Source: Paenibacillus hexagrammi | GTDB lineage: Bacteria; Bacillota; Bacilli; Paenibacillales; NBRC-103111 | NCBI RefSeq assembly: GCF_021513275.1 | Contig: NZ_CP090978.1 | Location: 1,364,001-1,428,000 of the forward strand | DNA: 64,000 nucleotides | Reading direction: 5' to 3' | In this document: piece after piece, positions 29,560-55,900 of the stretch | Layout: every line of letters begins with the position of its first letter | Position numbering within the stretch: position 1 is the first letter of the stretch | Notes under the pieces: generated by a model | Databases searched by the model: none | Told to the model about the DNA's origin: nothing | Seen by the model: only the letters and a program-made list of their open reading frames with translations | Program-made: the position numbers and the translations under genes

Positions 29560-29643
29560 TACAATAACAGACCTTACTAGTGCCTTATATGGTATTTCAA
29601 ATGAAATAGACGGTTGTAGCATGTAAATAATGAGGTGGTCAAT

Positions 29644-34461: not shown

Positions 34462-34532
34462 TTACTGGGGGACTTGGCGGGTTAGGGCTCATAGTTGCCA
34501 AAGAAATCGCAAAGCGAGTCAAGCATGCATCT

Positions 34533-35807
34533 TTGATTCTAACAGGCAGATCTCCGCTCAGTGAGGATATACATGCTAAACTGAAGGAATGGAACAGTAC
34601 AGATATCAGGATTGAATACAGGCAGGTCGATGTGTCCGATCTCAATGCGGTTAACGAGCTCATTCAAAACATTCGAGAATACTTCGGGGAACTTCATGGT
34701 ATTATCCATGGCGCTGGTGTAATCAAAGACAACTTCATCATTAAAAAGACAAAAGATGAATTCGCGGATGTACTAGCGCCTAAGGTAACAGGGCTGGTCA
34801 ATCTGGATCAAGCCAGTCAAGATGTTAAGCTGGACTTTTTTATTCTGTTCTCTGCTATCGCTGGAACGATTGGTAATGTTGGACAGGCTGATTACGCAAC
34901 TGCCAATGCCTTTATGGATGCTTATGCTAGTTATCGTAATCATTTGGCCCAATTGAACCAACGTCACGGGAAAACGTTATCGATCAATTGGCCGTTGTGG
35001 CGAGATGGCGGAATGCGCGTTGATCAAGAACGTGAGAAAATGATGGTTCAGAATACCGGAATGTTGGCTATGGAGACTGAAAGCGGAATCCTGGCTTTAT
35101 ATAGAAGTATAGCATCAGGTGAAAATCAAGTGATGGTGATGGAAGGCCAGCTCGCTAAAATGAAGCAGCAGCTGTTGGAAAACAGCCCTGTTTCCGTAAG
35201 GTCGATGAAGAAGGTTGCTGATAGTAACAATTTACAAGATCAAGTGCAACAAGATCTGATTAAAATGGTATCAGATTTACTTGAGGTAAATCCCGCAAAC
35301 ATCGATGTAACCGTATCGCTTACTGATTATGGATTTGATCCTTTCCGTGTGGCTGAATTAGCCAATAAAATCAGCGAGGAATATTCATTTGAGGTTTCCA
35401 CACATCTATTATTTGATCATTCAACGATTCATCACATTACCAGCTACTTGATAGATAAGTACGGTGATAGGCTCAAAAATACATATCGGATAGAGCATTC
35501 GGACCAACAATCTCCCGCTGCAGATGGTACAAGGACGGCAGTCGGAGAAGAACTGATTAATGAAAAAGTCGTTACTTATTTGAAAAGAGTGCTATCTACA
35601 GTCATCAAGCTGCCCGTAAATCGAATAGAAGCGGATGCCGAGTTGGAAAAGTACGGAATCGATTCGATCGTGGTGATGCAAATAACGAATCAATTAGAAA
35701 AGGATTTCGGTTCATTATCGAAAACTTTGTTCTTTGAATACCAAAATATTCAAGAGTTGGCCGGATATTTTATGGAGACACACAAGGAGCAGCTGCAAAA
35801 ATATTAG
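34533..35807 (+). CDS. PKS B, fragment 2: KR2-ACP2a*-ACP2b
   Basis: Coding in this frame begins near 34452 (YLITGGLGGLGLIVAKEIAKRV), before the first ATG. KR2 has the NADPH glycines and the catalytic Tyr in GQADYATANAFMDAY. VIKDN suggests the B-type stereochemical class. Two carriers follow. ACP2a reads DYGFDPFRVAELANKI: the Ser that receives phosphopantetheine is Pro (codon CCT, 35340-35342), so it cannot be loaded. ACP2b reads KYGIDSIVVMQ and is normal. The frame ends at five As (35797-35801); six would give LQKILGIENK and run into KS3. Confidence 0.85.
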   Translation: MILTGRSPLSEDIHAKLKEWNSTDIRIEYRQVDVSDLNAVNELIQNIREYFGELHGIIHGAGVIKDNFIIKKTKDEFADVLAPKVTGLVNLDQASQDVKLDFFILFSAIAGTIGNVGQADYATANAFMDAYASYRNHLAQLNQRHGKTLSINWPLWRDGGMRVDQEREKMMVQNTGMLAMETESGILALYRSIASGENQVMVMEGQLAKMKQQLLENSPVSVRSMKKVADSNNLQDQVQQDLIKMVSDLLEVNPANIDVTVSLTDYGFDPFRVAELANKISEEYSFEVSTHLLFDHSTIHHITSYLIDKYGDRLKNTYRIEHSDQQSPAADGTRTAVGEELINEKVVTYLKRVLSTVIKLPVNRIEADAELEKYGIDSIVVMQITNQLEKDFGSLSKTLFFEYQNIQELAGYFMETHKEQLQKY

Positions 35808-35866
35808 GAATAGAGAATAAAGTAACAGCAACGGTTCACCAGGAACAAGATCCAGTCGTATACAGT

Positions 35867-36238
35867 GTGATGATGGCTCCTAAAAGCCATACTCACAAGC
35901 GATTTACCTCGTTAAAACGATCTCCAGAAGAGAGAGAAAACGAGGTATTTGACGTTGCCATTATCGGAGTCTCAGGGCGGTATCCCGGGGCGAGAAATCT
36001 ACAGGAATTCTGGAACAATTTGCGGAATGGTCGGGATTGCATTACTGAAATTCCTAAAGAACGTTGGGATTCCAGCGTATACTTTGACGAAGATAAAACG
36101 AAATCCGGGAAGACATATTCCAAGTGGGGGGATTTTTGGAGGGGGTCGATCAATTCGACCCGCTTTTCTTTAATATCTCCCCCGCGAAGCGGAACTGATG
36201 GATCCTCAGGAACGATTGTTTTTGGAGTGCGTGTATGA
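35867..36238 (+). CDS. PKS B, fragment 3: start of KS3
   Basis: N-terminal part of KS3 (DVAIIGVSGRYPGARNLQEFWNNL, ITEIPKERWDSSVYFDED). Coding really begins near 35802. The frame breaks at six Gs (36126-36131; seven expected, giving KWGGFLEGVDQFDPLFF) and once more near 36177-36186, where comparison with KS4 and KS7 shows one base missing before REAELMDPQER. Confidence 0.75.
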   Translation: MMMAPKSHTHKRFTSLKRSPEERENEVFDVAIIGVSGRYPGARNLQEFWNNLRNGRDCITEIPKERWDSSVYFDEDKTKSGKTYSKWGDFWRGSINSTRFSLISPPRSGTDGSSGTIVFGVRV

Positions 36239-39200
36239 AGCCATGGAGGATGCGGGGTATACTCGCGAAACATTGGGTTCGAACCGTGAGTCAGGTCTGG
36301 ATGGAGACGTTGGGGTTTATGTAGGAGTCATGTATGAGGATTACCAACTTTTTGGAGTCGAGGAACAGACGCTGGGAAGACCGATAGCAGCTGGCGGAAC
36401 CTTAGCATCCATCGCTAATCGCGTGTCCTATTTCTTCAATTTACACGGACCGAGCATGGCTGTGGAAACGATGTGCTCCTCCTCATTAACAGCCATTCAT
36501 CTGGCTTGTCAAAGTATTCAGCGAGGCGGTTGTGAACTGGCCATCGCAGGAGGAGTGAATATCTCCCTTCATCCGAATAAATATTTGAAGCTCAGCCAAG
36601 GGAAATTTATTTCCAGCAAAGGAAGATGTGAAAGCTTTGGGGAAGGCGGCGACGGTTACGTACCCGGCGAAGGGGTAGGGGCCATATTGCTAAAGCCGCT
36701 ATCGAAGGCAATCGCAGACGGCGACCAGATCTATGGGGTTATCAAAGGGACAGCCATTAATCACGGAGGAAAGACCAACGGATATACGGTACCTAGCCCC
36801 AATGCGCAAGGTGACCTAATAGGTAAAGCTTTGAAAGAAGCTGGAGTCAATCCGCGGACCATCAGTTATTTGGAAGCCCACGGAACCGGAACAGAATTGG
36901 GAGATCCGATTGAAATTACCGGCTTAACCCGGGCGTTTGGCCGAAATACGCCTGACAAACAATTTTGTGCGATAGGGTCGGTAAAGTCGAACATCGGGCA
37001 TTGTGAAGGCGCAGCGGGGATAGCGGGACTAACCAAAGTATTACTGCAATTCAAACATGGCCAAATCGTGCCGTCGCTCCATTCAAAGGTATTGAATCCT
37101 TATATAGAATTTAAGGAAACTCCTTTTGTGGTGGAGCAAGAACTAAGGGAATGGAAGCGACCATGGATCGAAATCGACGGAGAGCTCAAAGAATACCCTA
37201 GACGGGCGGGAGTATCCTCTTTTGGAGCGGGAGGATCCAACGCCCATTTGATTATTGAAGAATACATGTCCGAAGTACGGGAACGTGCCGAATCTGCGGT
37301 TAGTCCCGAGAATACGGCGATTATTGTATTATCGGCTAAGAATGAGGAACGCCTGCAGGAGCAAGTGGTGCGATTGATTGCCGCTATTCAAGAACAGCCG
37401 CTCACCGAGAAGGATTTAATCGATACCGCCTATACACTTCAAGTAGGGCGGGAAGCGATGGAAGAACGTTTGGCCGTGATCGTAAGTTCTCTGAAGGACC
37501 TACAGGCAAAGCTGACAGGTTACTTGGAAGGCAAAGACGATATCGAAGGCCTGTACCGGGGACAGATCAAACGCAGTAAGGAGGCCGTGTCAGTTTTCAC
37601 AGCGGATGAAGACCTGCTTACAGCGATAGACGCCTGGATCAGTAAAAGGAAATACGGAAAACTGCTTGATTTATGGGTAAAAGGATTAAGTATAGACTGG
37701 AATCGGCTTTACCCAGGGACCAAGCCGCGCCGCATCAGCCTGCCGACGTATCCTTTTGCCAAAGAGAGATATTGGATTCCGGAAAGTCAGACTGGACTCG
37801 CCCATGGCACTGTAGCACCAATAACCGGCAGTGTGATTCATCCCTTATTGCATCAAAATACTTCCGATCTGACGGAACAACGGTTTAGCACAACATGGAC
37901 GGGGCGGGAGTTTTTCTTAACCGATCATGTGATCAAAGGACAACGGGTACTCCCGGGGGCAGCTTGTTTGGAGATGGCGCGTGCGGCAGTAGCGGAGGCT
38001 ACAAGAGAAGGAGACGAAGTCGCAATCAAACTGAAAAACGTCGTATGGACGCAGCCTATCGTCGTAGGAGAACAACCGCTTCGAATGCATATTGGGCTGT
38101 ATCCCGAAGATAACGGGGAGATTGAGTATGAAATCTATCGAGAGGATGAAGCGGACTTTGCCGAATCGGTCGTATACGGACAAGGCAGAGCTCTGCTAAG
38201 CCCAGTGAAGGAAAAGCAGATATTACATCTCAAAGATGTGCAGGAGGAGTGCAATCTAAGCATTCTCACATCCGAAGAACTGTACAAGACGTTTCGAATG
38301 ATCGGAATCGAGTACGGACCGGGGCATCAAGGAATTGAGAACGTATATTTGGGAAAAGATCAAGCGTTGGCAGAGCTGTCATTGCCAATGTCGATCCGGA
38401 ATACACAGGATCAGTATGTTCTCCATCCCAGCATCCTGGATTCTGCGCTCCAAGCGACAATCGGGCTTCGAATAGGCGGCGAAGACCTGAAGCCAGCGCT
38501 TCCTTTTGCCTTGCGGGAGATTGAAATTCTTGGCAGATGCACACCGAAGATGTGGGCATGGATTCGGAATAGTACCAACAGTCATGCGGGGGATCGTGTA
38601 AGAAAATTAGATATTGATGTATGTGACGAACAAGGCAATGTCTGTATACGGATGAAGGAGCTTTCCTCCAGAGCGCTGGAGGGAGAGAAGAATACGATCG
38701 AATCCGCGATCGCATCAGAGCTATTCATGCTTGAACCCGTCTGGGAAGAGCGATTGAATGCTCGCCAAAGTTCTGCTGCTGATTATGCTCAACATCTGAT
38801 TCTTTTATGTGAACTAAGTAACGTCACCTCAGAGGCTATTGAAGAGCGGATAAACGGGGTACGATGTGTCACATTGCATTCCCCGCAGCTCAGTATTGCG
38901 GAACGATTCCAACGTTATGCAGTCAGGGTATTTGAAGAAATTCAGAGCCTGGCAAAGTTGAAACCAAAGAAAGAAATACTCATTCAACTAGTAGTTCCAA
39001 ATCAAGGAGAAGAAAAACTCTTCTCGGGCTTGCTGGGACTTTTGAAAACGGCGCAAATTGAGAATCCCAAATTGATCGGACAACTGATTGAAGTGGAAGC
39101 GAGTGAAGGGGTAGAAGGGTTAAAAGTAATGCTGGAAGCCAGCAGCGCCATCAGAGAGCAGCACATTCGCTATCAATCAGGTAAGCAGTTGGTTACAAGA

Positions 39201-42200
39201 TGGAAGGAACTCGAGGTGCAACCTGAAGCGGGCGACCTCCCTTGGAAAGACCGAGGTGTGTATCTCATCACCGGGGGATTGGGCGGCTTAGGACTTGTAT
39301 TCGCGGAAGAGATTGCGGCGCGGGTTCAAGAGTCGGTGTTAATTCTAACCGGCCGTTCTTCGCTGAATGAGGTCAAACAAGCCCGATTGAAAAAGCTTGA
39401 AAACCTGGGAGCACATATCGTATATCGGCAAGTCGATGTAACGGATCAACAAGCAGTGACAGAATTGATACGAAGCCTTCACGAACAATTCGGTCATATC
39501 GATGGCATTATTCATAGCGCTGGATTAATTAAAGATAATTTTATTATTAAAAAGACGAAAGATGAATTTGTAGAAGTATTAGCTCCAAAGGTCACCGGAT
39601 TGGAAAACTTGGATCAGGCAAGTAAAGATTTGAGACTGGATTTCTTTATTCTCTTCTCTTCATTGACGGGGAGGTTCGGTAATATAGGGCAGGCGGATTA
39701 CTCAACCGCCAATGCTTTTATGGATGCATATGCCAATTACCGTAACCGAATGGTCCAGTTGAACCGACGACATGGGAAAACGTTATCGGTAAATTGGCCG
39801 TTATGGCGAGATGGCGGAATGGGTGTTGACCAAGAACGCGAAAAGATAATGACACAGAACACTGGGATGATCCCGATGCAAACACAGACAGGGATCCGCG
39901 CCTTGTACCAGGGCTTGGCATTGAGAAATGAGCAGGTCGTGGTGATGGAGGGGGACATCGGCCAGTTCCGAGCCAATCTTATCGAGCCAACCCATCACCA
40001 AGACAGAATGACAAATCAGAATACGGTTACCGGAGATGACTCAAAAGGCACAGCTCACAGTGAGGAATTACTTTACGAAAAAGCTATCAATTACTTAAAG
40101 AAAATGCTTGCTTCCGTCATCAAGCTCCCAAGTAATCGAATTGAAGCGGATGTCAAGCTAGAAGTATACGGAATCGATTCGGTTATGGTCATGCAAGTAA
40201 CGAATCTATTAGAAAAGGAATTCGGTTCATTATCGAAAACATTACTTTTTGAATACCAAAGTATTCAGGAATTGGCCGGATATTTGGTTGAGACACACCG
40301 GGAGCAGCTGCAGAAGATATGGGGTATTGAAGATAAAGCAGCGACCTCGATTACTCAGGATCAACGCACTGGAATAGACAATACAAAGATTGCGCCTAAA
40401 AGCCGTAGACGAAAACGGTTTGCCTCCTCTAAGGAATCTTCCGCAGAGAAAGGAAATGAGGCCTTTGACGTTGCCATTATTGGGGTTTCGGGGAGGTATC
40501 CGGGGGCGAGAAATCTTCAGGAATTCTGGAACAATTTGCGGGACGGAAAGGATAGCATTATTGAAATTCCTAAAGAACGCTGGGATTCCAGCGTATACTA
40601 TGACGAAGATAAAACGAAACCTGGAAAGATGTATTCCAAGTGGGGAGGATTTTTGGAGGGTGTCGATCAATTCGATCCGCTTTTCTTCAATATTTCCCCG
40701 CGCGAAGCGGAACTGATGGATCCTCAGGAACGATTATTTTTGGAATGTGTGTATGAAGCGATGGAGGATGCGGGATATACTCGCGAAACATTGGGTTCAT
40801 ATCGCGGATTGGGTCTGGAAGGCAACGTTGGGGTTTATGTAGGTGTCATGTATGATGAGTATCAGCTTTTCGGGGCTCAGGAACAGATGCTGGGAAGACC
40901 GGTCTTGTCGGGAGGAACCTTAGCTTCAATCGCCAACCGGGTGTCCTATTTCTTCAATTTCCATGGACCCAGCATGGCTGTGGAAACGATGTGTTCCTCC
41001 TCATTAACGGCCATTCATCTGGCTTGTCAAAGTATCCAGCGGGGTGGATGTGAACTGGCGATAGCGGGGGGAGTGAATGTATCTCTTCACCCGAATAAAT
41101 ACCTGAAGCTCAGCCAAGGGAAGTTCACTTCCAGTAAAGGAAGATGCGAAAGCTTCGGGGAAGGCGGCGACGGATACGTGCCCGGCGAAGGTGTAGGGGC
41201 CGTATTGCTAAAGCCGCTATCGAAAGCCATCGCAGACGGCGACCAGATCTATGGGGTTATCAAGGGGACTGCCATTAATCACGGAGGAAAGAATAATGGA
41301 TATACGGTACCTAGCCCTAATGCGCAAGGAGTTCTAGTGGGTCATGCTTTGAAAGAAGCTGGAGTCAATCCGCGGACCATTAGTTATTTGGAAGCCCACG
41401 GAACCGGAACGTCCTTGGGAGATCCGATTGAAATTAACGGGTTGACTCGGGCATTTGGCCAGGATATATCTGACAAGCAGTTTTGCGCAATTGGCTCAGT
41501 GAAGTCGAACATCGGGCATTGCGAAGGCGCCGCCGGTATAGCGGGATTAACGAAAGTATTATTGCAATTCAAGTATGGCCAAATCGTACCGTCTCTCCAT
41601 TCCAAGGTGCTGAATCCTCATATTGACTTTAAGGAGACTCCTTTTGTGGTGCAGCAGGAACTGACGGAGTGGAAGCGTCCATGGATCGAGATCGACGGAG
41701 AGCTCAGAGAATACCCAAGACGGGCGGGAATATCCTCCTTTGGGGCTGGAGGAGCTAATGCCCATATGGTCATCGAAGAATATGTATCGGAAGACGGGGT
41801 GAGGGCTGAACGTGCGGTAAGTCCCGACAATCCGGTCATGATTGTATTGTCGGCCAAGAATGAAGAACGCCTGAAGGAGCAAGTGGGGCGATTAATTGCT
41901 GCCATTCAAGAGCAGCCACTCAGCGAGAAGGATTTAATGGATACGGCCTATACGCTCCAAGTGGGGCGTGAAGCGATGGAAGAACGTCTGGCCATCATCG
42001 TAAGTTCCCTGAAGGAGCTACAGGAAAAGCTGACAAATTATTTGGATGGAAAAGACGATATTGAAGACCTGTACCGGGGACAGATTAAACGGAATAAGGA
42101 GACTATGGCCATCTTCGCTGCTGATGAAGACATGGTCCAGATAATAGACGCCTGGATAAGTAAACGCAAATATGGAAAGCTGCTTGATTTATGGGTGAAA

Positions 42201-44144
42201 GGTTTCAATGTGGATTGGAATAAGTTGTATCCGGGGATTAAGCCGCGCCGTATCAGCCTGCCGACGTATCCTTTTGCCAAAGAGAGATACTGGATTCCGG
42301 AAAGTGAGACTGGACTCGCCGGTGGCACAGTAGCACCTATTGCGGGTACTGTAATCCATCCCTTCTTGCATCAAAATACGTCCGACCTGACCGAGCAGCG
42401 ATTTAGCACAACATGGACGGGGCGGGAGTTTTTCTTAACCGATCATGTGATCAAAGGACAACGGGTACTCCCAGGGGCAGCTTGTTTGGAGATGGCGCGT
42501 GCGGCAGTAGCGGAGGCGACACGGGAACAAGACGGGGCTGTGATCAAACTGAAAAATGTGGTGTGGACACAGCCTGTCGTTGCAGGGGAACAACCGCTTC
42601 GGGTTCATATCGGACTGTATCCGGATCATGACGGGGAGATTGAATACGAAATCTACCGCGAGGATGAAGCAGACCCCAGTGAATCGGTCGTATACAGCCA
42701 AGGCCGCGCCGTACTTAGCCACATGGACGAAAAGCCGGTATTACCTCTGAAGGCTTTGCAGGAGGAATGTAGTCAAAGAAGTCTCTCATCCAACGAGCTG
42801 TATCAGGCATTCCGGGCGTTGGGAATCGAGTATGGCCCCGGACATCAGGGGATTGAGAAGGTAGATGTGGGAGAAGGTCAAGCTTTGGCGGAATTGTCAT
42901 TGCCTGTGTCTGTCAGGGACACCCAGGACCAGTATGTTCTCCATCCGAGCATCCTGGATTCCGCGCTCCAAGCGTCAATCGGACTGCGGGTCGGCAGTGA
43001 GGACCTGAAGCCAGCGCTTCCTTTTGCCTTGCGGGAGATTGAAATTCTCGGTGCATGCACGCCGAGAATGTGGGCATGGATTCGGAATAGTACCAACAGT
43101 CATGCGGGGGATCGAGTAAGGAAATTAGATATTGATATATGTGATGAGCAAGGCAATGTCTGCATACGGATGAAGGAACTTTCCTCCAGAGTGCTGGAAG
43201 CAGAGATGGATTCGACCGAACCTTCGGATGCACCGGAGCTTTTCATGCTTGAACCTGTCTGGGAAGAGCGATTAACTGCTCAGCAAAGTTCTGCTGCTGA
43301 TTATGCTCAGCATCTGATTCTTTTATGTGAACTAAGTAACGTCAACTCAGAGGCTATTGAAGAGCGGATGAACGGGGTACGCTGTGTCACATTGCAATCT
43401 CCGCAGCAAAGTATTGCGGAACGATTCCAACGTTATGCAGTCCGGGTATTTGAAGAAATTCAGAGCCTTGTCAAGGAGAAATCAAAGAAAGAAATACTCA
43501 TTCAACTTGTAGTTCCGAATCAAGGAGAAGAGGAGCTATTCTCGGGCTTGCTGGGACTTTTGAAAACGGCGCAAATGGAGAATCCCAAATTGATCGGACA
43601 ACTGATTGAAGTAGAAGCGAATGAAGGAGCAGAAGGGTTGGAAGTAATGCTGGAAGCCAGCAGCGCCACCAGAGAGCAGCACATTCGCTATCAATCAGGT
43701 AAGCAGTTGGTTACTAGATGGAAGGAAATCGAGGTGCAGCCTGAAGCGGGCGACCTCCCTTGGAAAGACCGAGGTGTGTATCTCATCACCGGAGGATTGG
43801 GCGGCTTAGGACTTGTGTTCGCGAAAGAAATTGCGGCGCGGGTTCAAGAATCGGTGTTAATTCTAACCGGCCGATCTTCGCTGAATGAGGCCAGCAGAGC
43901 GAAGTTGAAAGAGCTTGAAACACAGGGCGCAAATATCGTATATCGGCAAGTGGATGTAACGGATCAACAAGAGGTGACAGAATTAATACGAAATCTTCAG
44001 GAACAATTCGGTCATATCGATGGCATTATTCATAGCGCCGGAGTAATTAGAGACAATTATATGATGAATAAGACGAAAGATGAATTTATAGAAGTATTGG
44101 CCCCCAAAGGTTGCCGGATTGGAAAACTTGGACCAGGCAAGTAA
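36198..44144 (+). CDS. PKS B, fragment 4: KS3-DH3-KR3-ACP3-KS4-DH4-KR4 (part)
   Basis: Residue numbers are within this 2648-aa frame. KS3 (ETMCSSS, C93; EAHGTGT, H228; KSNIGH), DH3 (DHVIKGQRVLPG, H577; HPSILDSALQA), KR3 (GGLGGLG about 1025; GQADYSTANAF), ACP3 (YGIDSVMVMQ, S1328), KS4 (C1599), DH4 (H2083; HPSILDSALQA) and the first part of KR4 (about 2530). Both modules should make an alpha,beta double bond. The VETMCSSS form of KS3, KS4 and KS7 agrees with KSs that accept an upstream olefin. The two modules are near-copies offset by about 4.52 kb. The frame is lost at AAA (44106-44108), where AA would continue LAPKVAGLENLDQASKD. Confidence 0.92.
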   Translation: MDPQERLFLECVYEAMEDAGYTRETLGSNRESGLDGDVGVYVGVMYEDYQLFGVEEQTLGRPIAAGGTLASIANRVSYFFNLHGPSMAVETMCSSSLTAIHLACQSIQRGGCELAIAGGVNISLHPNKYLKLSQGKFISSKGRCESFGEGGDGYVPGEGVGAILLKPLSKAIADGDQIYGVIKGTAINHGGKTNGYTVPSPNAQGDLIGKALKEAGVNPRTISYLEAHGTGTELGDPIEITGLTRAFGRNTPDKQFCAIGSVKSNIGHCEGAAGIAGLTKVLLQFKHGQIVPSLHSKVLNPYIEFKETPFVVEQELREWKRPWIEIDGELKEYPRRAGVSSFGAGGSNAHLIIEEYMSEVRERAESAVSPENTAIIVLSAKNEERLQEQVVRLIAAIQEQPLTEKDLIDTAYTLQVGREAMEERLAVIVSSLKDLQAKLTGYLEGKDDIEGLYRGQIKRSKEAVSVFTADEDLLTAIDAWISKRKYGKLLDLWVKGLSIDWNRLYPGTKPRRISLPTYPFAKERYWIPESQTGLAHGTVAPITGSVIHPLLHQNTSDLTEQRFSTTWTGREFFLTDHVIKGQRVLPGAACLEMARAAVAEATREGDEVAIKLKNVVWTQPIVVGEQPLRMHIGLYPEDNGEIEYEIYREDEADFAESVVYGQGRALLSPVKEKQILHLKDVQEECNLSILTSEELYKTFRMIGIEYGPGHQGIENVYLGKDQALAELSLPMSIRNTQDQYVLHPSILDSALQATIGLRIGGEDLKPALPFALREIEILGRCTPKMWAWIRNSTNSHAGDRVRKLDIDVCDEQGNVCIRMKELSSRALEGEKNTIESAIASELFMLEPVWEERLNARQSSAADYAQHLILLCELSNVTSEAIEERINGVRCVTLHSPQLSIAERFQRYAVRVFEEIQSLAKLKPKKEILIQLVVPNQGEEKLFSGLLGLLKTAQIENPKLIGQLIEVEASEGVEGLKVMLEASSAIREQHIRYQSGKQLVTRWKELEVQPEAGDLPWKDRGVYLITGGLGGLGLVFAEEIAARVQESVLILTGRSSLNEVKQARLKKLENLGAHIVYRQVDVTDQQAVTELIRSLHEQFGHIDGIIHSAGLIKDNFIIKKTKDEFVEVLAPKVTGLENLDQASKDLRLDFFILFSSLTGRFGNIGQADYSTANAFMDAYANYRNRMVQLNRRHGKTLSVNWPLWRDGGMGVDQEREKIMTQNTGMIPMQTQTGIRALYQGLALRNEQVVVMEGDIGQFRANLIEPTHHQDRMTNQNTVTGDDSKGTAHSEELLYEKAINYLKKMLASVIKLPSNRIEADVKLEVYGIDSVMVMQVTNLLEKEFGSLSKTLLFEYQSIQELAGYLVETHREQLQKIWGIEDKAATSITQDQRTGIDNTKIAPKSRRRKRFASSKESSAEKGNEAFDVAIIGVSGRYPGARNLQEFWNNLRDGKDSIIEIPKERWDSSVYYDEDKTKPGKMYSKWGGFLEGVDQFDPLFFNISPREAELMDPQERLFLECVYEAMEDAGYTRETLGSYRGLGLEGNVGVYVGVMYDEYQLFGAQEQMLGRPVLSGGTLASIANRVSYFFNFHGPSMAVETMCSSSLTAIHLACQSIQRGGCELAIAGGVNVSLHPNKYLKLSQGKFTSSKGRCESFGEGGDGYVPGEGVGAVLLKPLSKAIADGDQIYGVIKGTAINHGGKNNGYTVPSPNAQGVLVGHALKEAGVNPRTISYLEAHGTGTSLGDPIEINGLTRAFGQDISDKQFCAIGSVKSNIGHCEGAAGIAGLTKVLLQFKYGQIVPSLHSKVLNPHIDFKETPFVVQQELTEWKRPWIEIDGELREYPRRAGISSFGAGGANAHMVIEEYVSEDGVRAERAVSPDNPVMIVLSAKNEERLKEQVGRLIAAIQEQPLSEKDLMDTAYTLQVGREAMEERLAIIVSSLKELQEKLTNYLDGKDDIEDLYRGQIKRNKETMAIFAADEDMVQIIDAWISKRKYGKLLDLWVKGFNVDWNKLYPGIKPRRISLPTYPFAKERYWIPESETGLAGGTVAPIAGTVIHPFLHQNTSDLTEQRFSTTWTGREFFLTDHVIKGQRVLPGAACLEMARAAVAEATREQDGAVIKLKNVVWTQPVVAGEQPLRVHIGLYPDHDGEIEYEIYREDEADPSESVVYSQGRAVLSHMDEKPVLPLKALQEECSQRSLSSNELYQAFRALGIEYGPGHQGIEKVDVGEGQALAELSLPVSVRDTQDQYVLHPSILDSALQASIGLRVGSEDLKPALPFALREIEILGACTPRMWAWIRNSTNSHAGDRVRKLDIDICDEQGNVCIRMKELSSRVLEAEMDSTEPSDAPELFMLEPVWEERLTAQQSSAADYAQHLILLCELSNVNSEAIEERMNGVRCVTLQSPQQSIAERFQRYAVRVFEEIQSLVKEKSKKEILIQLVVPNQGEEELFSGLLGLLKTAQMENPKLIGQLIEVEANEGAEGLEVMLEASSATREQHIRYQSGKQLVTRWKEIEVQPEAGDLPWKDRGVYLITGGLGGLGLVFAKEIAARVQESVLILTGRSSLNEASRAKLKELETQGANIVYRQVDVTDQQEVTELIRNLQEQFGHIDGIIHSAGVIRDNYMMNKTKDEFIEVLAPKGCRIGKLGPGK

Positions 44145-44560: not shown

Positions 44561-46512
44561 GCGGCGTCACGAATAACTTGCTTGATCAAGTTCAGAAAGC
44601 GTTAGTGCAGATGATGTCGCAGTTGTTGAAGGTGAAGAGTGACGATATTAGCTTAGATGTTGTTTTGAATGAATATGGATTTGACTCCATAACATTTACG
44701 CAATATACCAATATGATCAACCAGGAATACCAGCTTGAACTTGCCCCAACCATATTTTTTGAATATTCCAGCTTGGAAAGTTTCTCTACCTACTTGATCC
44801 AGGAACACCAAGCCGCTTTAGCAAGTAAATTGGATGTAATAACGCACGCTGCGGTTCCAATGCCAGGGGAAGAAAAATCGAAAGAGGTTAAGCTTTCGGG
44901 TAAAAGACAGCGCTCGCGGTTTGTTTCAGCCCAGACCTTGCCCGTAACCAAATCCAATCCTATCATCTCCGAACCTATTGCGATTGTTGGCATGAGCGGG
45001 GCTTTTCCTATGGCTGAGGATTTGAAAGAATTTTGGAGTAATCTAGCGGCAGGGAAAGACTGTATCAGCGAAATTCCCAAAGAACGCTGGGACTGGCGTG
45101 AGTATTATGGGGATCCAATCCAAGAAGCCAATAAAACCAATATTAAGTGGGGCGGTTTTATGGATGGAATCGCTGATTTTGACCCGTTGTTTTTTGGCAT
45201 TTCGCCACGGGAAGCTGAGCTTATGGATCCACAGCAGCGCATGCTTATGACTTATGTTTGGAAAGCGATTGAGGATGCCGGATATTCGGCTCAAAGCCTT
45301 TCGGGAACTAAAACCGGCATATTTGTAGGAACGGCCAATAGCGGCTACAGCGGATTGATATCCCGAGCGAAAGTGTCAATCGAAGGGTACAGTTCGACCG
45401 GGTCAGTTGCTTCGATGGGACCGAATCGGATGAGTTATTTTTTAAATATTCATGGTCCAAGCGAACCCGTTGAGACCGCGTGCTCAAGTTCATTGGTAGC
45501 GATCCATAGAGCTGTGAACGCCATTGAGACAGGCAGCTGCGACATGGCGATTGTTGGCGGCATTAACACGCTCGTGACGCCCGAGCCTTACATCAGTTTC
45601 AACAAAGCTGGGATGCTCTGTGAAGACGGACGCTGTAAGACGTTTTCAAACCGTGCCAATGGTTATGTGCGAGGTGAAGGGGTTGGCATGCTCTTTTTGA
45701 AAAAGTTGGGGGATGCGGAACAAGCCGGCGATCATATTTATGGGGTAATCCGCGCCACGGCCGAAAATCACGGAGGTAGGGCCAATTCCTTGACGGCGCC
45801 TAACCCGAAAGCGCAAGCGGAGCTGTTGAAAACGGCGTACACGAAGGCTGGAATTGATCCGAGAACGGTTACTTATATTGAAGCCCATGGAACAGGAACT
45901 GAACTTGGCGACCCCATCGAAATCAACGGTTTGAAAACAGCATTTAAGGAGTTGTATCAAATCGCGGGAGATTCCGACAACATAGCTGCTAATTGCGGAT
46001 TGGGCTCAGTGAAGACGAATATCGGTCATTTGGAACTGGCAGCAGGAGTCGCAGGAGTTATTAAAGTATTGCTGCAAATGAAACACAAAGCGCTGGCTAA
46101 AAGCCTTCATTGTGAAACGGTTAACCCTTATATTCAACTTCAAGACAGCCCATTCTATATTGTGCAAGAAACCAAAGAATGGAGTTCTGTTCAGGATGCT
46201 CAAGGCCGAGAAGTCCCCCGCAGGGCTGGGGTTAGTTCTTTTGGATTTGGAGGAGCCAACGCCCATGTGGTACTTGAGGAATACATTCCTAAAGTGCGGG
46301 AACGTTCCAAATTAGCGGTTAGTCCCGAGAATCCGGCCATTATCGTATTGTCGGCCAAGAATGAGGAACGCCTGAAAGAACAAGTGCAGCGCTTGATGGT
46401 CGACATTCAGGAACAGCCATTTACCGACAAAGATTTGATCGATATCGCCTATACACTCCAGGTAGGGCGGGAAGTGATGGAAGAACGCCTGGCCATCATT
46501 GCCGGATCCTGA
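44119..46512 (+). CDS. PKS B, fragment 5: KR4 (end)-ACP4-KS5
   Basis: Continues KR4 from GLENLDQASKDLRLDFFILFSSLTG (catalytic Tyr in GQADYATANAF). ACP4 is NEYGFDSITFTQ, S190. KS5 follows (VETACSSS, C455; EAHGTGTELGD; KTNIGH). KS5 differs in sequence from KS3/KS4/KS7, but its downstream linker (SPENPAIIVLSAKNEERL) is shared with them. The frame is lost at CC (46508-46509), where CCC would continue AGSLKELQEKL. Confidence 0.88.
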   Translation: MENLDQASKDLRLDFFILFSSLTGRFGNIGQADYATANAFMDAYANYRNRLVQLNRRHGSTLSVNWPLWRDGGMGVDQEREKMMTQHTGMIPMRTQTGIRALYQVLVSRNAQVMVMEGNLAKMKQKMLSTPAAPEPKVVVKRPESSASGVTNNLLDQVQKALVQMMSQLLKVKSDDISLDVVLNEYGFDSITFTQYTNMINQEYQLELAPTIFFEYSSLESFSTYLIQEHQAALASKLDVITHAAVPMPGEEKSKEVKLSGKRQRSRFVSAQTLPVTKSNPIISEPIAIVGMSGAFPMAEDLKEFWSNLAAGKDCISEIPKERWDWREYYGDPIQEANKTNIKWGGFMDGIADFDPLFFGISPREAELMDPQQRMLMTYVWKAIEDAGYSAQSLSGTKTGIFVGTANSGYSGLISRAKVSIEGYSSTGSVASMGPNRMSYFLNIHGPSEPVETACSSSLVAIHRAVNAIETGSCDMAIVGGINTLVTPEPYISFNKAGMLCEDGRCKTFSNRANGYVRGEGVGMLFLKKLGDAEQAGDHIYGVIRATAENHGGRANSLTAPNPKAQAELLKTAYTKAGIDPRTVTYIEAHGTGTELGDPIEINGLKTAFKELYQIAGDSDNIAANCGLGSVKTNIGHLELAAGVAGVIKVLLQMKHKALAKSLHCETVNPYIQLQDSPFYIVQETKEWSSVQDAQGREVPRRAGVSSFGFGGANAHVVLEEYIPKVRERSKLAVSPENPAIIVLSAKNEERLKEQVQRLMVDIQEQPFTDKDLIDIAYTLQVGREVMEERLAIIAGS

Positions 46513-46604
46513 AGGAACTTCAGGAAAAGCTCACAAGCTTCCTGAAAGGTCAGGAAACTATCGAAAACCTATACCGGGGGCAGATTAAAGGTAATAAGCG
46601 AATC

Positions 46605-46967: not shown

Positions 46968-46986
46968 TTCATTCTGGAGGTTAGCT

Positions 46987-49900
46987 ATGGATAGTTTTTT
47001 AACATACATTCTATCTGAGGTGAAAAACGGGCGATTATTGAAATCAGAAGCCTTACTTTTGCTGCGTCAATTGAATTCTCGAATTGCGAACGATGAGAAA
47101 TCGCATGTTTCCCATCCCTTCTTGCATCAAAATACTTCCGACCTGACTGAACAACGATTTAGCACAACTTGGACGGGGCAGGAGTTTTTCTTAACCGATC
47201 ATGTGATACAAGGTCAGAAGGTTCTGCCAGGTGTAGCCTGTTTGGAAATGGCGCGTGTGGCAGTGGCCGAAGCGACTAGAGCTAAAGACGGGGCTGCAAT
47301 CATATTGAAAAATGTTGTATGGACGCAGCCTATCGTTGCAGGTGAACAACCGCTTCGTGTGCATATCAGGCTGTATCCGGAAGGTAGCGGTGAGATTGGA
47401 TACGAAATCTACCGTGATGATGAAGCGAATCCTGCCGAATCGGTCGTATACAGCCAAGGCAGCGCCCTGCTGAGCTCTGATATGGATAGACCGGTGTTAC
47501 AACTAAAGACTATTCAGGAGGAGTGCAATCCAAGCAGTCTCACATACGAAGAGCTGTATGAGACGTTTCGGGCGATGGGAATCGAGTATGGACCCGGACA
47601 TCAGGGGATTAAGAAGCTCTATGTGGGAGAAAGTCATGCATTGGCAGAGCTGTCATTGCCTATGTCTGTCCGCGAAACCCAAGATCAGTATGTTCTCCAT
47701 CCAAGCATCATGGATTCAGCGCTCCAAGCGGTGATCGGGCTGCGAATTGGCGGCGAAGATCGGAAGGCATCGTTGCCCTTCGCCGTACAGGAGATACAAA
47801 TTATGGGCACATGCACACCGAAGATGTGGGCATGGGTTCGGAATAGTAGGAGCAGTCAAGCAGGGGATCGGGTAAGAAAATTAGATATTGATGTATGCGA
47901 TGATCAGGGTAAGGTCTGCATTCAAATGAAGGAGATTTCTTTCAGGGGAATGGAAGGGGAACTTCAAAACCATTCTGAGCCGCAAGTTGCCCTAGAGACT
48001 GCCATGTTAACACCTGTATGGGATGTCATTACGGAGAAACCAAGTCAAGCCTGTTCGTTCTCAAACGAGCAGGTTTTCGTTATTGGAGCAAATACAGGTG
48101 AGCAAAGTCGGATCGGGGAATATTTCCCTAATGCACATCGATTGGAAATTGGAATTGATGACAATGTGGAGGAAATCGCCAAAAAGATAGAGATGCACGG
48201 AACAGCAGATCATATCATATGGATTGCTCCATACGCTCCTTTAGGCTCACTCATGGAAGAGTCGTTCATTGAAAAGCAGAATCAAAGTATCCTCTCGCTA
48301 TTCAGAACGGTTAAAGCCTTGCTGAAGTTAGGCTACGGAGGAATAGACCTGAATTGGAGTGTAATTACCACTCAAGCTCAACCTGTTCATAAAAATGATC
48401 ATGTAAATCCAATTCATGCGGGAATTGACGGGTTCATCGGTTCAATGGCTAAAGAATACACGAACTGGAAAATACGTCTTCTTGATCTGGAAGCGGATTG
48501 CTCGTGGCCAATTGATGAAATGTTCGCGCTGCCATGGGATTCACGAGGCAACCCTGTGGCCTACCGAGGCAGGGAATGGTACAGCCAGAAACTGGTTGCC
48601 ATCCAGCCTGTTAACAGGGACCGAACTTCGTATAAGAAGGGAGGAGTCTATGTAGTCATTGGGGGCGCCGGCGGTATTGGCGAAATCTGGACGGACTACA
48701 TGATTCGTACCTATCAAGCACAGATCATATGGATTGGCAGACGGCCTAAAGATGAAGCGATACAGACGAAGCTGGATCAACTCGCAATTTTAGGAGTATC
48801 GCCGCATTACATGACAGCTGATGCGACGAACCAGAAGGAACTCCAGCAAGCTTATGAAGAGATCAAGCGGAAATATACGGGAATTGATGGAGTCATTCAT
48901 TCTGCGCTCGTACTTCATGATCAAAGCTTGGCAAACATGGAAGAAGAATCTTTTAGAGCCGGACTCGCGGCAAAAGTGGATATCAGTGTGCATATTGCTC
49001 AAGTTTTCCACCAGGAACCGTTGGATTTTGTCATGTTTTTCTCTTCGTTCAACTCATTTACAAAAGCTTTTGGACAAAGTAACTACACGTCCGGCTGTAC
49101 ATTCGCAGATACTTTTGCCCATCAGCTATCTTTGGAATGGCCATGTGCTGTGAAAGTGATGAATTGGGGATATTGGGGAAGTGTCGGTATTGTCGCTTCC
49201 AAAGCTTACCGGGAACGGATGGAACAGGCGGGCATCGGATCTATAGAACCACCGGAAGCCATGGCAGCCTTGGAAACACTTTTGGCAGGTCCTCTGGATC
49301 AAATCGGATTCATAAAGACTACAAAATCCATAGGTTTTGAGGCATTAGAATCCATGGAGGAACGGATAACAATATACCCGGATCGTTTGAAACCCAATCT
49401 GGAGAACATATCGAACAACTTGCCAAAACGAAACCAAGAGCTTGAAGTGTTGAAGAACACAGAAAACTTAGCCGTGAAAGAAATGGAGAACGTCCTCCAT
49501 AGACTGCTTTTGGGTCAATTACAAGCGTTGGGATTGTTGAAGTCAGGTGAATGGACATCCGGCAATCAAACGAAAACGGTTTTATTGGAGAAGTACGACC
49601 GTTGGTTGAAAGAAAGTTTCACAGTTTTGGAGACGAACCAATATCTTCGGTTTGACGGAGCACATGCCGTGGTAAATGAAGCCCCCTTAGAGGAAATAGA
49701 TTCGATATGGGAAGATTGGTTCAAAAAGAAGAACACATGGCTGGAAATTCCGAATTTGAAAGCCCAGGTGACTTTGGTAGAAGAGACAATGCGGGCTTTA
49801 CCCGCAATTCTTACCGGTAAAGTGCTTGCTACAGACATCATGTTTCCTGATTCATCTCTTGAATTGGTGGAAGGAATATACAAAAATAACTTGGTTGCAG

Positions 49901-52900
49901 ATTACTTTAATGGTGTGCTGGTGGATACAATTATTGCTCATATTGAAGACCGGTTGCACCAAGACCCGGCTGCGCGCATCCGGCTGATTGAGATTGGTGC
50001 TGGTACCGGAGGAACCAGCAGCATGATTTTTCGGAAACTTGAGCCCTATCGGGAACATATTCAGGAATATTGTTATACAGATATTTCGAAAGCGTTCATT
50101 ATGCATGCTGAAAACGTATACGGGGCTAGCCATCCTTATTTGACATACCAGCTTTTTAACGTGGAACAGCCTGCCGCCGGACAAGGAATTCGTGTGGGTG
50201 ATTACGATATTGTCATTGCCGCCAATGTCATACATGCTACCCCAAATATTCGGCAAACTATACGCAATCTGAAAGCAGTCGCTCGAAAAAACGGGTTGAT
50301 CTTATTAAATGAAATAAGCAGGAAGTCGCTATTCACCCATTTGACTTTTGGCCTTCTAGAAGGGTGGTGGCTGTATCAAGATCCGGAATTACGCATTCCG
50401 GGTTGTCCGGGCTTATCTTCTGAAACCTGGCGCAAGGTTCTGGAAAATGAGGGTTTCAAGTCGGTGTACTTTCCCGCTGAAACGGCGCATGATTTGGGAT
50501 TACAGATCATTGCGGCTGAAAGTGATGGAGTTGTCCGACAAAAACAGTTATCTCATTCAAATGCCATTCCTGGAAAACAGATAGCTAAAAAACAAACCGA
50601 AGAAGTCGCCTCAGATTTGCTTCGGGACAAAAGTACGTCGTACCTGAAAAGATTGATTGGAGAAACACTAAAGCTGCCCAGTCACAAGATCGATTCGACA
50701 GAGCAGCTGGAAAAGTACGGGATCGACTCCATTTTGGTTACACAGCTAACGAATAACTTGCGCAAAGTATTTGCGAATGTGAGTAGCACCTTATTCTTCG
50801 AATATCAAACCATCGATGCTTTAGTAGAACATTTTCTAATCACTCAAAAAGAGTCATTGATTGCTTTAGTAGGTTTAGAGCAGAAGGGGGAGGAAGAAAA
50901 GAGTTCAAGGATCGATCCAAAAGACATCTCGATTTCATCAACGCATAATCATTCGGGAATGAAACAAACCAGACGCTTTCTCCATATGGATGAGCCAAGC
51001 ATGACAAGACCGGAATCAACACGTTCAGCGGTGGAGGAGATTGCCATTGTTGGCCTTTCGGGGCGTTACCCTGGGGCTATTCATATGTATGAATTTTGGA
51101 ATCAACTAAAAGCGGGACAGAATTGTATCTCAGAAATTCCTGGCGAACGCTGGAACTGGAGACACTATTATCATGCCGAGAAAGGAAATAAAGGGTCCAT
51201 CTATACGAAATGGGGCGGATTTCTCGAGGATATTGATAAATTCGATCCGTTATTTTTCAATATTGCTCCTGCTGAAGCTGAGAAAATGGACCCTCAAGAG
51301 CGGCTATTTCTTGAAACCGCCTATGCTTGCATCGAAGACGCCGGGTACACAACGGCTAATCTAAGTGAAAGCCGTAAAGTTGGCGTATTTGTCGGTGTTA
51401 TGAATGGCAACTATCCTACGGGGCATAATTATTGGTCCATTGCTAACCGGGTTTCCTACTTATTTAATTTTCATGGTCCGAGCATCGCCGTGGATTCCGC
51501 TTGTTCCTCTTCATTGACAGCGATACATTTGGCCTTGGAAAGCTTGCATAGCGGTACAAGTGAATGTGCGATCGTAGGTGGTGTCAATTTAATTGTTGAT
51601 CCCGTTCATTATAAGAGACTATCAGCGAAGACGATGCTTTCATCAACGGATCAATGCAAGGCGTTTGGAGAGCATGCCGATGGATTTGTTGCCGGAGAAG
51701 GGGTAGGGGCCGTAGTACTGAAACCCCTATCCAAAGCAATCGCAGACGGGGACCAGATCTATGGAGTAATCAAAGGTACAGCCATTAATCATGGAGGAAA
51801 AACCAATGGATATACGGTGCCTAGCCCCAATGCGCAAGGCCATTTAATTAGCCAGGCTTTGAAAGATGCCGGAGTAAATCCACGGACTATCAGTTATTTG
51901 GAAGCTCACGGAACCGGAACGGTATTGGGAGATCCGATAGAAATTAACGGGCTGACCCGGGCCTTTGGTCAAGATACATGGGACAAACAGTTTTGCGCGA
52001 TTGGTTCTGTGAAGTCCAATATTGGGCATTGTGAAGGCGCAGCCGGAATAGCGGGATTAACGAAAGTGCTGCTGCAACTAAAGAATGGCCATATCGTGCC
52101 GTCGCTTCATTCCGAGGTACTGAATCCTAACATTGATTTTAAGGAAACTCCTTTTGTGGTGCAGCAGGAGCTGACGGAATGGAAGCGGCCGTTGATCGAG
52201 ATCGACGGAGAGGCCATCGAGTATCCAAGACGTGCGGGAATTTCCTCCTTTGGAGCCGGGGGAGCCAATGCTCATGTGGTCATTGAAGAATATATATCGA
52301 AAGACAGAAAGACGGCTGAACTTTCGGTTAGTCCTGAAAATCCCGCCATCATCATATTGTCGGCCAAGGATGAGGAACGTCTGCTGGAGCAAGTACGGCG
52401 ATTGATCGCTGCCATTCAAGAGCAGCCGCTCGCCGAAAAGGATGTAATCGATACCGCTTATACACTCCAAGTAGGGCGGGAAGCCATGGAAGAACGCTTG
52501 GCCGTCATCGTAAGTTCCCTGAAGGAACTGCAAGAAAAGCTGACAAGCTTTCTGGAAGGCAAAGATGATATCGAAGACCTGTACCGGGGACAAGTTAAAC
52601 GGAATAAAGAAACAATGGCGATTTTCAATGCGGATGAGGACATGCACCATACGATCGATGCCTGGATAAGCAAGCAGAAATATGGAAAACTGCTTGATTT
52701 ATGGGTGAAAGGTTTGAGCTTAGATTGGAACAGGCTTTATCCGGGCAGCAAGCCGCGCCGCATCAGCCTGCCGACGTATCCTTTTGCTAGGGAGAGATAC
52801 TGGGTTCCGGAAATGGCGGCGGGAGTCGCTGATATCGCCGGCGGGTTGTCGGGACCGACAGCCGTCACCGTGATCCACCCGTTATTGCATCAAAATACGT

Positions 52901-55900
52901 CCGATCTGACCGAGCAGCGATTTAGCACAACATTAACGGGGCAGGAATTTTTCTTAACCGATCATGTGATCAAAGGACAACGGGTACTGCCGGGGGCAGC
53001 TTGTCTGGAGATGGCGCGTGCGGCAGTAGCGGAGGCGACAAGGGGAAATGACGGGGCAGCGATCAAGCTGAAAAACGTGGTGTGGACACAGCCTGTCGTT
53101 GCAGGGGAACAATCTCTTCGGGTGCATATCGGGCTGTATCCGGCAGATGACGGAGAGATCGAATACGAAATCTACCGTGAAGATGAATCGGATCCTGATG
53201 AATCTGTCTTCTACAGCCAAGGCCGTGCCTTGCTAAGCCCGATGAAGGAAAAGCCGCTATTACATTTAACGGCTTTGCAGGAGCAGTGTAATCAAAGCAA
53301 TCTCTCATCTGATGAGCTGTATCAGGCATTTCGGGCGATGGGAATCGAGTATGGTCCCGGGCATCAGGGCATTGAGAAGGTATATGTGGGAGAAGATCAA
53401 GCCTTGGCAGCACTGTCATTGCCATTTTCTGTCCTTGATACCCAAGACACGTATGTTCTCCATCCCAGTATCATGGATTCCGCACTCCAAGCATCGATTG
53501 GGCTGCGGAAGGGCAAAGAAGAACTTAAAGCGGCGCTGCCTTTTGCATTGCAAGAGATTGAAATTTTCGGTGCTTGCACGCAGAAGATGTGGGCTTGGAT
53601 TCGCAGCAGTACCAACAGTCAAACGGGGGAACGCGTAAGGAAACTAGATATAGATCTATGCGATGAGCAGGGCAATGTCTGTATTCGGATGAAGGGGCTT
53701 TCTTCCAGAGCGCTGGAGGGTGAGATCGATTCTCCAGAATCCCAAGCAGTCTCAGAGCTTCTCATGCTTGAACCGGTCTGGGAGGAACAGGTGGCTGGAC
53801 ATCAAAGTTCTGCTATCGAGTATGCACAGCATCTGATTATTCTGTGTGAACTAAGTAGCGTCACCTCCGAAGCTCTGGGGGATCGGATAAATGGGGCACA
53901 TTGCATTTCATTACAATCTTACCAGGAAAGTATCGCGGAACGATTCCAAAGCTATGCAGTTCGAATATTTGAAGAAATTCAAGGCCTGGTAGATTCGAAA
54001 CCGAAGAAAGAAATTCTCATTCAAATTATAGTCCCGAACCAAGGAGAAGGGGAGCTTTTCAAGGGTTTGCTCGGACTTTTGAAAACGGCGCAAATTGAGA
54101 ATCCCAAATTGATAGGACAATTGATTGAAGTGGAAGTGCATGAAGGAACGGAAGGGATCAAGAAGATCCTGGAAACCAGCAGTGCCGCCAGGGAACAGCA
54201 TATTCGCTATCAATCAGATAAGCGGTTAGTTAGCAGATGGAAAGAGCTCGAGGAACAGCCTAAAGCGGTCGACTTACCGTGGAAAGACCGGGGCGTGTAT
54301 CTCATCACCGGTGGTACCGGCGGATTGGGACTTGTCTTCGCCGAAGAAATTGCCGAACGAGTTCAAGGAGCTGTTGTAGTATTAGCGGGCCGATCCTCGC
54401 TGAACGAGGCCAAACGAGCCCAATTGAAGCAGATTGAAAATCGGGGCGTACATATCGTATACCGTCAGGTCGATGTAACAGATAAACATGCAGTAGCAGC
54501 ATTCATACGCAGCCTTCAGGAACAATACGGAAGAGTCGATGGCATTATTCATAGCGCCGGAGTGATTCAGGATAATTTTATTTTGAATAAGACAAAGGAT
54601 GAATGTATAGAAGTATTGGCTCCTAAGGTTTGCGGTTTGGAAAACCTGGATCTAGCAAGCCAAGATTTGAGGCTGGATTTCTTCATATTATTCTCTTCCT
54701 TAACGGGAAGATTCGGCAATATGGGGCAGGCAGATTATGCAACCGCCAACGCCTTTATGGATGCTTATGCCAATTACCGTAACCGATTGGTCCAATTGAA
54801 CCGACGTCATGGGAAAACCTTATCGGTGAACTGGCCGTTATGGCAGGCTGGCGGAATGAGTGTTGTCAAAGAACGCGAAAAGATGATGATGCAGAATACC
54901 GGAATGGTGGCTATGCAGACTGAAACCGGCATCCGGGCTTTATATCAGAGCATAGCATCCGGAAAAGACCAGATCATGGTAATGGAAGGCCAACTCACGA
55001 AAATGAGACAGCAGTTGTTGGCATTCTCCCCAGCTCACGTAGCATCGATGAAGCTGGATGCCGTTAGTACCAATTTGCAGGATCAATTGCAACAAGATCT
55101 GATCCAAATTGCGGCTGAGTTACTCAAGGTGAATCAGACGAATATCGATGCAAACGTGGCGCTGTCTGAGTATGGATTCGATCCGTTCCATGTGACCGAG
55201 CTAGCCAATAAACTCAATGAGAAGTATGCATTTGAGGTTTCTCCGACCTTATTATTTGATCATTCAACGCTTCGTCATACTGCTGTTTACTTGATCGAAA
55301 CCTACGGCGATATGCTCAAAAATATATATCGGAATGAGAATTTGTATATAACTGTCTCAGCCGGAGAGAGTACAAAATCGGAAGCAGCCGATGAAGAATT
55401 GCTCTACGAAAAAGTCGTAAATTATGTAAAGAGAATGCTTTCTTCCATTATCAAGCTGCCCGCGAATCGAATTGAAGCGGACGCCCAGTTGGAAAAGTAC
55501 GGAATTGATTCGGTCATGGTTATGCAGTTAACAAATCAATTAGAAAAAGTGTTTGGTTCTTTATCGAAAACATTGTTTTTTGAATACCAAACCATTCAGC
55601 AATTAGCCAGATATTTTCTAGAGGCACATCGGGAGCAATTGCAAGAATTACTGGGGATTGAAGAAAAAGTTGCGGCTGCGACGAATCAGGTTCAAGACAT
55701 CGGGGCAGGCAGTGCAATGACTGCGACTAAACGTCATCGACGCCATCGGTTCGTCTCGTTGAAAGGATCTCCTGCCGAGAAAGATAACGAAGTGGTTGAC
55801 GTTGCCATCGTTGGGGTTTCGGGCAGGTATCCCGGAGCGAGAAATTTGCAGGAATTCTGGAACAATTTGCGGGATGGACGGGATTGCATCACTGAAATTC

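Follow-up and report, generated by a model that had tools for sequence, protein, structure and literature searches.

The 64,000-nucleotide stretch analyzed here (the window; Paenibacillus hexagrammi, contig NZ_CP090978.1, positions 1,364,001 to 1,428,000) carries part of a trans-acyltransferase (trans-AT) polyketide synthase (PKS) cluster. In an initial annotation, two acyl carrier protein (ACP) domains of this assembly line, ACP2a in module 2 and ACP6a in module 6, were described as lacking the Ser to which phosphopantetheine is attached. We refer to such Ser-less ACP domains as psiACPs. Direct reading of both codons bears the description out: ACP2a reads ggatttgatcctttccgt at 35331 (GFDPFR; Pro codon cct, 35340-35342), and ACP6a reads ggattcgatccgttccat (GFDPFH; Pro codon ccg, 55183-55185). 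ACP4, named as their normal counterpart, indeed reads GFDSIT at 44677. The rest of the fold was also said to be retained; ELANK and LLFDHST are present in both domains, and both match the PF00550 profile (scores in Table 1). A domain search confirmed the arrangement dehydratase (DH)-ketoreductase (KR)-ACP*-ACP in modules 2 and 6, the asterisk marking the Ser-less domain. In each module the Ser-less first carrier is followed by an intact second one, ACP2b (GIDSI) or ACP6b (GIDSV).

Six psiACPs score 49.4-53.6 bits against PF00550 (cut-off 20.8), compared with 59.6 for ACP4 and 62.1 for ACP6b. The Ser of the attachment site is missing: Pro stands there in all psiACP copies read, and in the aligned psiACPs the three residues before and the three after Pro hold no conserved Ser or Thr that could substitute. 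We examined this column in 57 carriers from the P. hexagrammi and P. sinensis clusters, a partial Paenibacillus PKS from the protein database (P0002) and related GFDS carriers; it holds Ser in 49 and Pro in eight. Because seven of these eight fall into one clade even when the motif columns are excluded, the occurrence of Pro goes beyond chance.

Recurrence, descent and constraint

A search of the P. hexagrammi genome with both sequences revealed a third psiACP in the same cluster (locus L008; G000:C1:1442765-1443001, E 1.7e-17), at window coordinates ~78,765-79,001, ~15 kb past the window. It reads CGFDPY (motif GFDPY) and belongs to a module ordered DH-KR-psiACP-methyltransferase (MT)-ACP, with 432 residues up to the next ACP; the MT was assigned from methyltransferase families matched in the P. 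sinensis counterpart (P0007). This copy departs from a simple tandem, since the MT lies between its two carriers. P. sinensis HN-1 (G330) has three psiACPs, all with Pro (GFDPI), in the three equivalent modules, and P0002 has GFEPF at the module-2 place. Since all three Pro sites recur in relatives, sequencing error and recent decay are unlikely.

Genome searches limited by E-value covered overlapping sets of 30 genus, 104 family, 392 order and 398 phylum genomes and 100 genomes of the genus of P. sinensis HN-1. They returned Pro forms only from P. hexagrammi and P. sinensis, the other matches read being Ser-type, and their limits can miss forms like that of P. tianmuensis described below. Seven of the 392 order-level genomes had matches at E 1e-20 or better; those read outside P. 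sinensis carry Ser. A pattern scan (L[TS][ED][YC]GF[DE]P[IFY]) across 84,980 species, each represented by one genome, yielded 112 stretches and seven related loci, three of them in P. sinensis. Beside a Ser-bearing GFDSI ACP, the remaining four loci (one each in P. tianmuensis and P. maysiensis, two in P. tyrfis genomes) have GFDPY in the order ketosynthase (KS)-KR-psiACP-ACP-KS. The psiACP module of this P. tianmuensis type gave no DH hit and is part of a different assembly line. That line (loci L037, L038, L040 and L041) is also trans-AT, with a KR-psiACP-ACP module and, where the locus extends further, three GLDS carriers after the next KS. An early species scan from two sequences, with patterns from the N-terminal part of the domain, found no relative. 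A profile search of the protein database with a short alignment gave two small Ser-bearing ACPs and no Pro form, and among five proteins from a further search a GFDP carrier was present only in the P. sinensis query protein itself. The GFxP form is rare, yet it extends beyond one strain and one assembly line.

The seven psiACPs of P. hexagrammi, P. sinensis and P0002 form one clade among GFDS-type ACPs when the motif columns are removed (support 89/86 with the 57 carriers and 86/90 with a wider set). P. sinensis ACP6b, which contains unknown letters, was excluded from the trees, and the second tree omits four rows (L047 and three long branches). The search for GFDPF-like carriers elsewhere and the ACP tree proposed in the initial annotation have thus yielded Pro carriers in other Paenibacillus and a clade that unites most of them. 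The P. tianmuensis/P. tyrfis pair is placed elsewhere within the GFDS group in the best tree. All nine Pro forms came together in 0/200 bootstrap trees, and a common clade was not rejected (approximately unbiased test, p 0.43). The KRs of psiACP modules form no single clade, so inheritance of the psiACP together with one KR is too simple an account.

Modules 2 and 6 of P. sinensis (L031 and L030) are 93-100% identical over five 120-nt blocks (~600 nt) that include the psiACP. On this identity the tract is the result of recent copying between modules, so the two P. sinensis psiACPs are not independent. The two modules differ in their KR starts. The third psiACP lies outside the copied tract. 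The eighth Pro carrier of the 57 is an insertion in a KS linker and is unrelated to the seven psiACPs. We found such a carrier-like insertion, reading GVEPV, in a post-KS linker of P. sinensis (C239 oriented 37605-37811, ORF (open reading frame) at 35985), and a matching one with Thr for Ser (GLDTV) in a Methylovulum protein (P0003, residues 2206-2268). The two insertions form a clade of their own (99/98), and the P. hexagrammi orthologue of the P. sinensis site is without one.

An AlphaFold2 model of the module 6 psiACP, based on an alignment of 22 sequences, is an ACP-like helical bundle (predicted local distance difference test (pLDDT) score, Table 1; predicted template modeling score 0.82). 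Its PDB matches are, by title, mostly carrier proteins (ACPs and peptidyl carrier proteins) or synthases containing them, and four reach E 0.001. In the model helix II spans residues 40-54 and starts at Pro40 itself. Because the first turn of a helix accommodates Pro readily, the change would take away the nucleophile while the predicted fold stays. A model of KR-ACP*-ACP (three sequences, mean pLDDT 48.9) was unusable.

Comparison of the three P. hexagrammi psiACPs with those of P. sinensis gave dN/dS values of 0.22, 0.18 and 0.29 (bootstrap intervals 0.08-0.44, 0.07-0.35 and 0.13-0.58), with 0/4000 bootstraps at or above 1. Pooled values were 0.231 for psiACPs and 0.124 for 15 Ser-bearing ACPs (95% interval of the difference, 0.018-0.221). 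We conclude that selection on psiACPs is purifying, and weaker than on working carriers. These ratios, well below 1, and the recurrence of Pro in P. sinensis and P0002 agree with the earlier argument that conservation in two modules speaks against random decay. Module copying, which the same annotation had considered, did contribute in P. sinensis. It is insufficient as the sole explanation: the KRs form no clade, the third psiACP lies between KR and MT, and dN/dS is well below 1.

Relation to carriers of trans-enoylreductase modules

Clade h ACPs, such as ACP3a of PksJ in bacillaene synthesis, have been described from units with DH, KR, KS and a trans-acting enoylreductase (ER). Around Ser62, their residues T66, N70 and N73 are reported to be highly conserved, and contact with the KR was postulated (PMC8549798). 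Counting Ser as zero, the signature is T+4, N+8, N+11. All three residues are present in 22/24 GFxS rows, compared with 0/27 G[IV]xS, 0/15 GLxS and 0/10 rows of the mixed rest, some places having been fetched twice or being near-copies in these counts and in the KS matches below. One GFDS tandem (L046) also has I-21 and V+5, which correspond to I41 and V67 of PksJ ACP3a. The full signature is found in one of nine psiACPs; individually, N+8 is present in five, N+11 in six and T+4 in one.

In trees built without named clade h sequences, the psiACPs are placed among the GFDS-type carriers. Compared with 14 GFDS carriers (Ser now counted as +1), the seven psiACPs of the clade share P at +1 (7/7) and V or A at +4 (7/7 vs 0/14). 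At +5, A is found in six of the seven and T in all 14; at -23, A is present in 6/7 and rare or absent in the GFDS carriers. The GFDS carriers thus have T, N and N at the same distances from Ser as clade h, and the psiACPs group with them. Unlike clade h, the psiACPs have no Ser, T is missing from eight of nine, and in no case is a KS the next domain. The psiACPs thus seem to derive from ER-type carriers, with loss of Ser and, in eight of nine cases, of T.

The setting separates the two forms. In 45 deduplicated GFx carriers, with domain order taken from ACP, KS, KR and DH models so that MT and AT domains were passed over, the next domain was an ACP for all nine Pro forms (two with ~420-430 residues, the MT, in between). 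For the Ser forms it was a KS in 31 cases, an ACP in three and the sequence end in two. P0009 and P0010, two proteins with AT domains, account for four of the 31 and for both end rows, and the three cases followed by an ACP are tandems of GFDS carriers. The KS that directly follows the carrier in an ER unit was therefore found after none of the nine distinct Pro forms.

KSs after Ser-bearing GFDS carriers matched KS5, or its P. sinensis counterpart, best in 20 of 21 rows of a first set (19 rows at 68-80% identity and L014 at ~50%; the exception was L047). In a second set KS5 was best in 8/8 testable rows, two of which repeat known places; five of these rows were only 46-48% identical to KS5, while other KSs reached 41-44%. 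A different type follows the psiACP modules. The KS after the psiACP-less module 3 shares 90% identity with the one after module 2 of P. sinensis and 89% with the one after module 6 of P. hexagrammi (the P. hexagrammi KS after module 2 is split and stood outside the comparison). For the KSs downstream of the psiACP-MT module, identity to those downstream of the psiACP-less MT module 5 is 74-76%. In P. tianmuensis, the KS that follows the psiACP module matches, at 73% identity, one that follows a KR-ACP module without a psiACP in the P. hexagrammi line. All KSs compared after psiACP modules share 47-49% identity with KS5. In trans-AT PKSs, KS phylogeny has been reported to follow the incoming intermediate (PMC7930024); hence the psiACP seems not to alter the product class of its module.

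Proposed origin and alternative readings

With moderate confidence we propose that psiACPs are ER-type carriers that left the chain path when their modules were re-plumbed and that have been kept as folded spacers. The proposal builds on the Ser loss, predicted fold, tree place, recurrence, selection and setting, each directly supported above. The ancestral domain would have been an ACP of the type found in modules served by a trans-acting ER. We infer that a second, different carrier with its matching KS (or an MT-ACP-KS unit) was then brought in, that the old carrier thereby lost its place before its own KS, and that it subsequently lost the attachment Ser. The resulting apo domain would be bypassed, chain loading and modification taking place only on the second ACP. 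Ser loss would block malonyl loading of a carrier unmatched to the new KS, and it would also keep the chain away from a carrier type recognised by the ER. KR-ACP pairs in trans-AT PKSs have been described as specific (PMC8549798), so an unmatched working carrier would be costly. Likewise, in gladiolin and etnangien synthesis, whether the ER acts reportedly hinges on the ACP (PMC10921412). The psiACP would be retained as a folded spacer between the KR and the working ACP, which fits the remaining purifying selection. A structural role had been one of the possibilities first raised for ACP2a and ACP6a, and such a role would accord with that selection.

Engineered polyunsaturated fatty acid (PUFA) synthases offer a parallel. 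An enzyme with a fifth, Ser-to-Ala ACP reportedly gave ~250% of the output of the 4-ACP enzyme, and replacing this inactive ACP by unrelated sequence lowered output to ~3% of that of the inactive-ACP enzyme (PMC5067506). A carrier that does not carry can thus raise output over that of an enzyme without it, which indicates that its fold is of importance. In the PUFA case the domains are man-made, stand in a tandem ACP row and remain below the productivity of active ACPs.

Several points weigh against the proposal. The inactive PUFA ACP gave only ~30% of the output of the five-active-ACP enzyme (PMC5067506). psiACPs evolve faster than working ACPs, so the constraint on them is partial. The putative ER-type ancestry is a signature match to one paper, with trees built without the named bacillaene sequences, and Ser may have been lost once or twice, both being possible. 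The link between GFDS carriers and a KS type is loose, and the KS type is not uniform.

We consider it unlikely that psiACPs are passive relics of recombination, that is, functionless leftover first carriers whose loss is pending. Their faster evolution relative to the partner ACPs would suit such relics, and the near-identical module 2/6 tract in P. sinensis shows that copying between modules occurs. However, dN/dS is 0.18-0.29 with bootstrap upper limits of 0.35-0.58, the frame is open in every psiACP copy read, and psiACPs are found in two different lines and three module types.

A docking adaptor, in which the psiACP still binds the trans ER and brings it to a chain carried by the next ACP, with binding and carrying thus divided between two domains, seems to us quite unlikely. 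It would agree with descent from ER-type carriers, with the presence of two PfaD-family ERs in the cluster, one of them fused to module 2, with purifying selection, and with the residues at -23, +4 and +5 that the psiACPs share and the 14 GFDS carriers rarely or never have. However, the KSs after psiACP modules match those after psiACP-less modules rather than KS5. In addition, the P. tianmuensis psiACP carries other residues at +4 (L) and +5 (S), and its module gave no DH hit, so there would be no enoyl for an ER to reduce there. The docking surface for a trans enzyme envisaged in the initial annotation is thus improbable, and finds no support as a general role. We give similarly little credence to the idea that psiACPs are a working switch for enoyl reduction, in which the inactive domain does the programming. 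In that case the module, by retaining an ER-type carrier that binds without carrying, would either withhold the reductase from the chain or pass it on non-covalently.

That the sequence is wrong, or that the cluster is decaying in this strain with Pro as a part of that decay, is highly improbable: several PKS frames are broken in this assembly, but relatives that were sequenced separately also have Pro, with unbroken frames in the parts covered, and breaks also occur outside the cluster.

Ser-less ACPs as such are already known. In the open-access literature we found two natural PKS examples. ACP9a of the phthoxazolin trans-AT PKS of Streptomyces avermitilis has no Ser and is presumed inactive by the authors (PMC5764310). 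As in modules 2 and 6, it is described as the first of two ACPs of a module, the other being intact; it is a single domain in a module with a non-elongating KS. Here, judged against the published description of ACP9a, there are several psiACPs per line, in several species, with Pro and with apparent ER-type ancestry. Within a type I PKS, the psiACP of Pks13 (PDB 6C4V; PMC9210659, PMC11649247) likewise shows an ACP fold but no catalytic Ser. It stands before the thioesterase (TE) of an iterative PKS, whereas the psiACPs described here come after a KR and before an ACP or MT-ACP; a Ser-less ACP before a TE was not seen among them. A further source (PMC10952193) was searched and gave no case of a Ser-less ACP. 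The literature searched, mostly without subscription papers, held no description of a recurring Pro-bearing carrier family or of an ER-type link, and both appear to be new.

If psiACPs are indeed retired ER-type carriers, a trans-AT line can change what a module makes by taking one carrier out of use and supplying a second, with no domain removed, and product prediction must not count a psiACP as an ER-type carrier. Modules with and without a psiACP would provide natural pairs for studying what inactive carriers do. For annotation, a domain above the PF00550 cut-off need not be a carrier.

Broken frames, neighbouring genes and coordinates

PKS frames are broken in this assembly at 34461/34533 (the KR of module 2), 35807/36198 (the KS after ACP2b), 44119/44144 and 58362/58455. 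P0002 and P. sinensis both read through the first two sites, and P. sinensis also through the third; the fourth lies outside the coverage of the relatives' copies. Elsewhere in the genome, an AMP-binding gene is split into two neighbouring pieces and another two matches are incomplete, so the breaks are not confined to the cluster. Assembly errors are a likely cause.

Table 1. Domains discussed in the text, with window coordinates
Feature	Position	Strand	Evidence
Second PfaD-family enoylreductase	23549..24739	+	TIGR02814 609.8 bits
PfaD-family enoylreductase domain fused to front of module 2	29770..31086	+	TIGR02814 550.3 bits
DH of module 2	32986..33858	+	Domain search
KR of module 2, directly upstream of psiACP; frame broken near start (34461/34533)	34437..35147	+	
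psiACP of module 2 (ACP2a), GFDPF, Pro codon 35340-35342	35253..35465	+	PF00550 49.8 bits, domain search
Partner ACP2b, intact GIDSI	35577..35786	+	Domain search
ACP3, carrier of psiACP-less DH-KR module 3 (comparison)	40092..40301	+	Domain search
KS after module 3; shares 89-90% identity with the KSs after psiACP module 6 (P. hexagrammi) and psiACP module 2 (P. sinensis)	40470..41786	+	
ACP4, Ser-bearing GFDS-type carrier of this line; T+4, N+8, N+11	44599..44811	+	
KS5, after ACP4; KS type following most Ser-bearing GFDS carriers tested	44977..46287	+	
DH of module 6	52870..53724	+	Domain search
KR of module 6, directly upstream of psiACP	54280..54990	+	Domain search
psiACP of module 6 (ACP6a), GFDPF, Pro codon 55183-55185	55096..55308	+	PF00550 51.8 bits; predicted fold pLDDT 91.2
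Partner ACP6b, intact GIDSV	55423..55632	+	Domain search
KS after psiACP module 6	55801..57117	+	Domain search

The TIGR02814 match of the PfaD domain fused to module 2 spans residues 46-484 of the ORF at 29635. The ORF of the second PfaD-family ER is without a start, the profile being matched from position 53 on.

We also considered beta-branching as the reason for psiACPs and rejected it, as carriers of the GLDSxxGVEW form, which we take to be the beta-branching type, are separate from psiACPs in the trees. Such carriers are present at 28786, 29206, 86469 and 86869. Two ORFs at window coordinates 66329-67588 and 69205-70470, which we take to be 3-hydroxy-3-methylglutaryl (HMG)-synthase-like, suggest that beta-branching occurs. 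An ORF inside the cluster, at window coordinates 97539-98711, presumably resembles the transformylase part of PurH; P. sinensis has a similar ORF in the corresponding position (C239 oriented 32284-33459). A DDE transposase ORF (PF01609) lies at 7775-9280, just upstream of the nonribosomal peptide synthetase (NRPS)/PKS genes.

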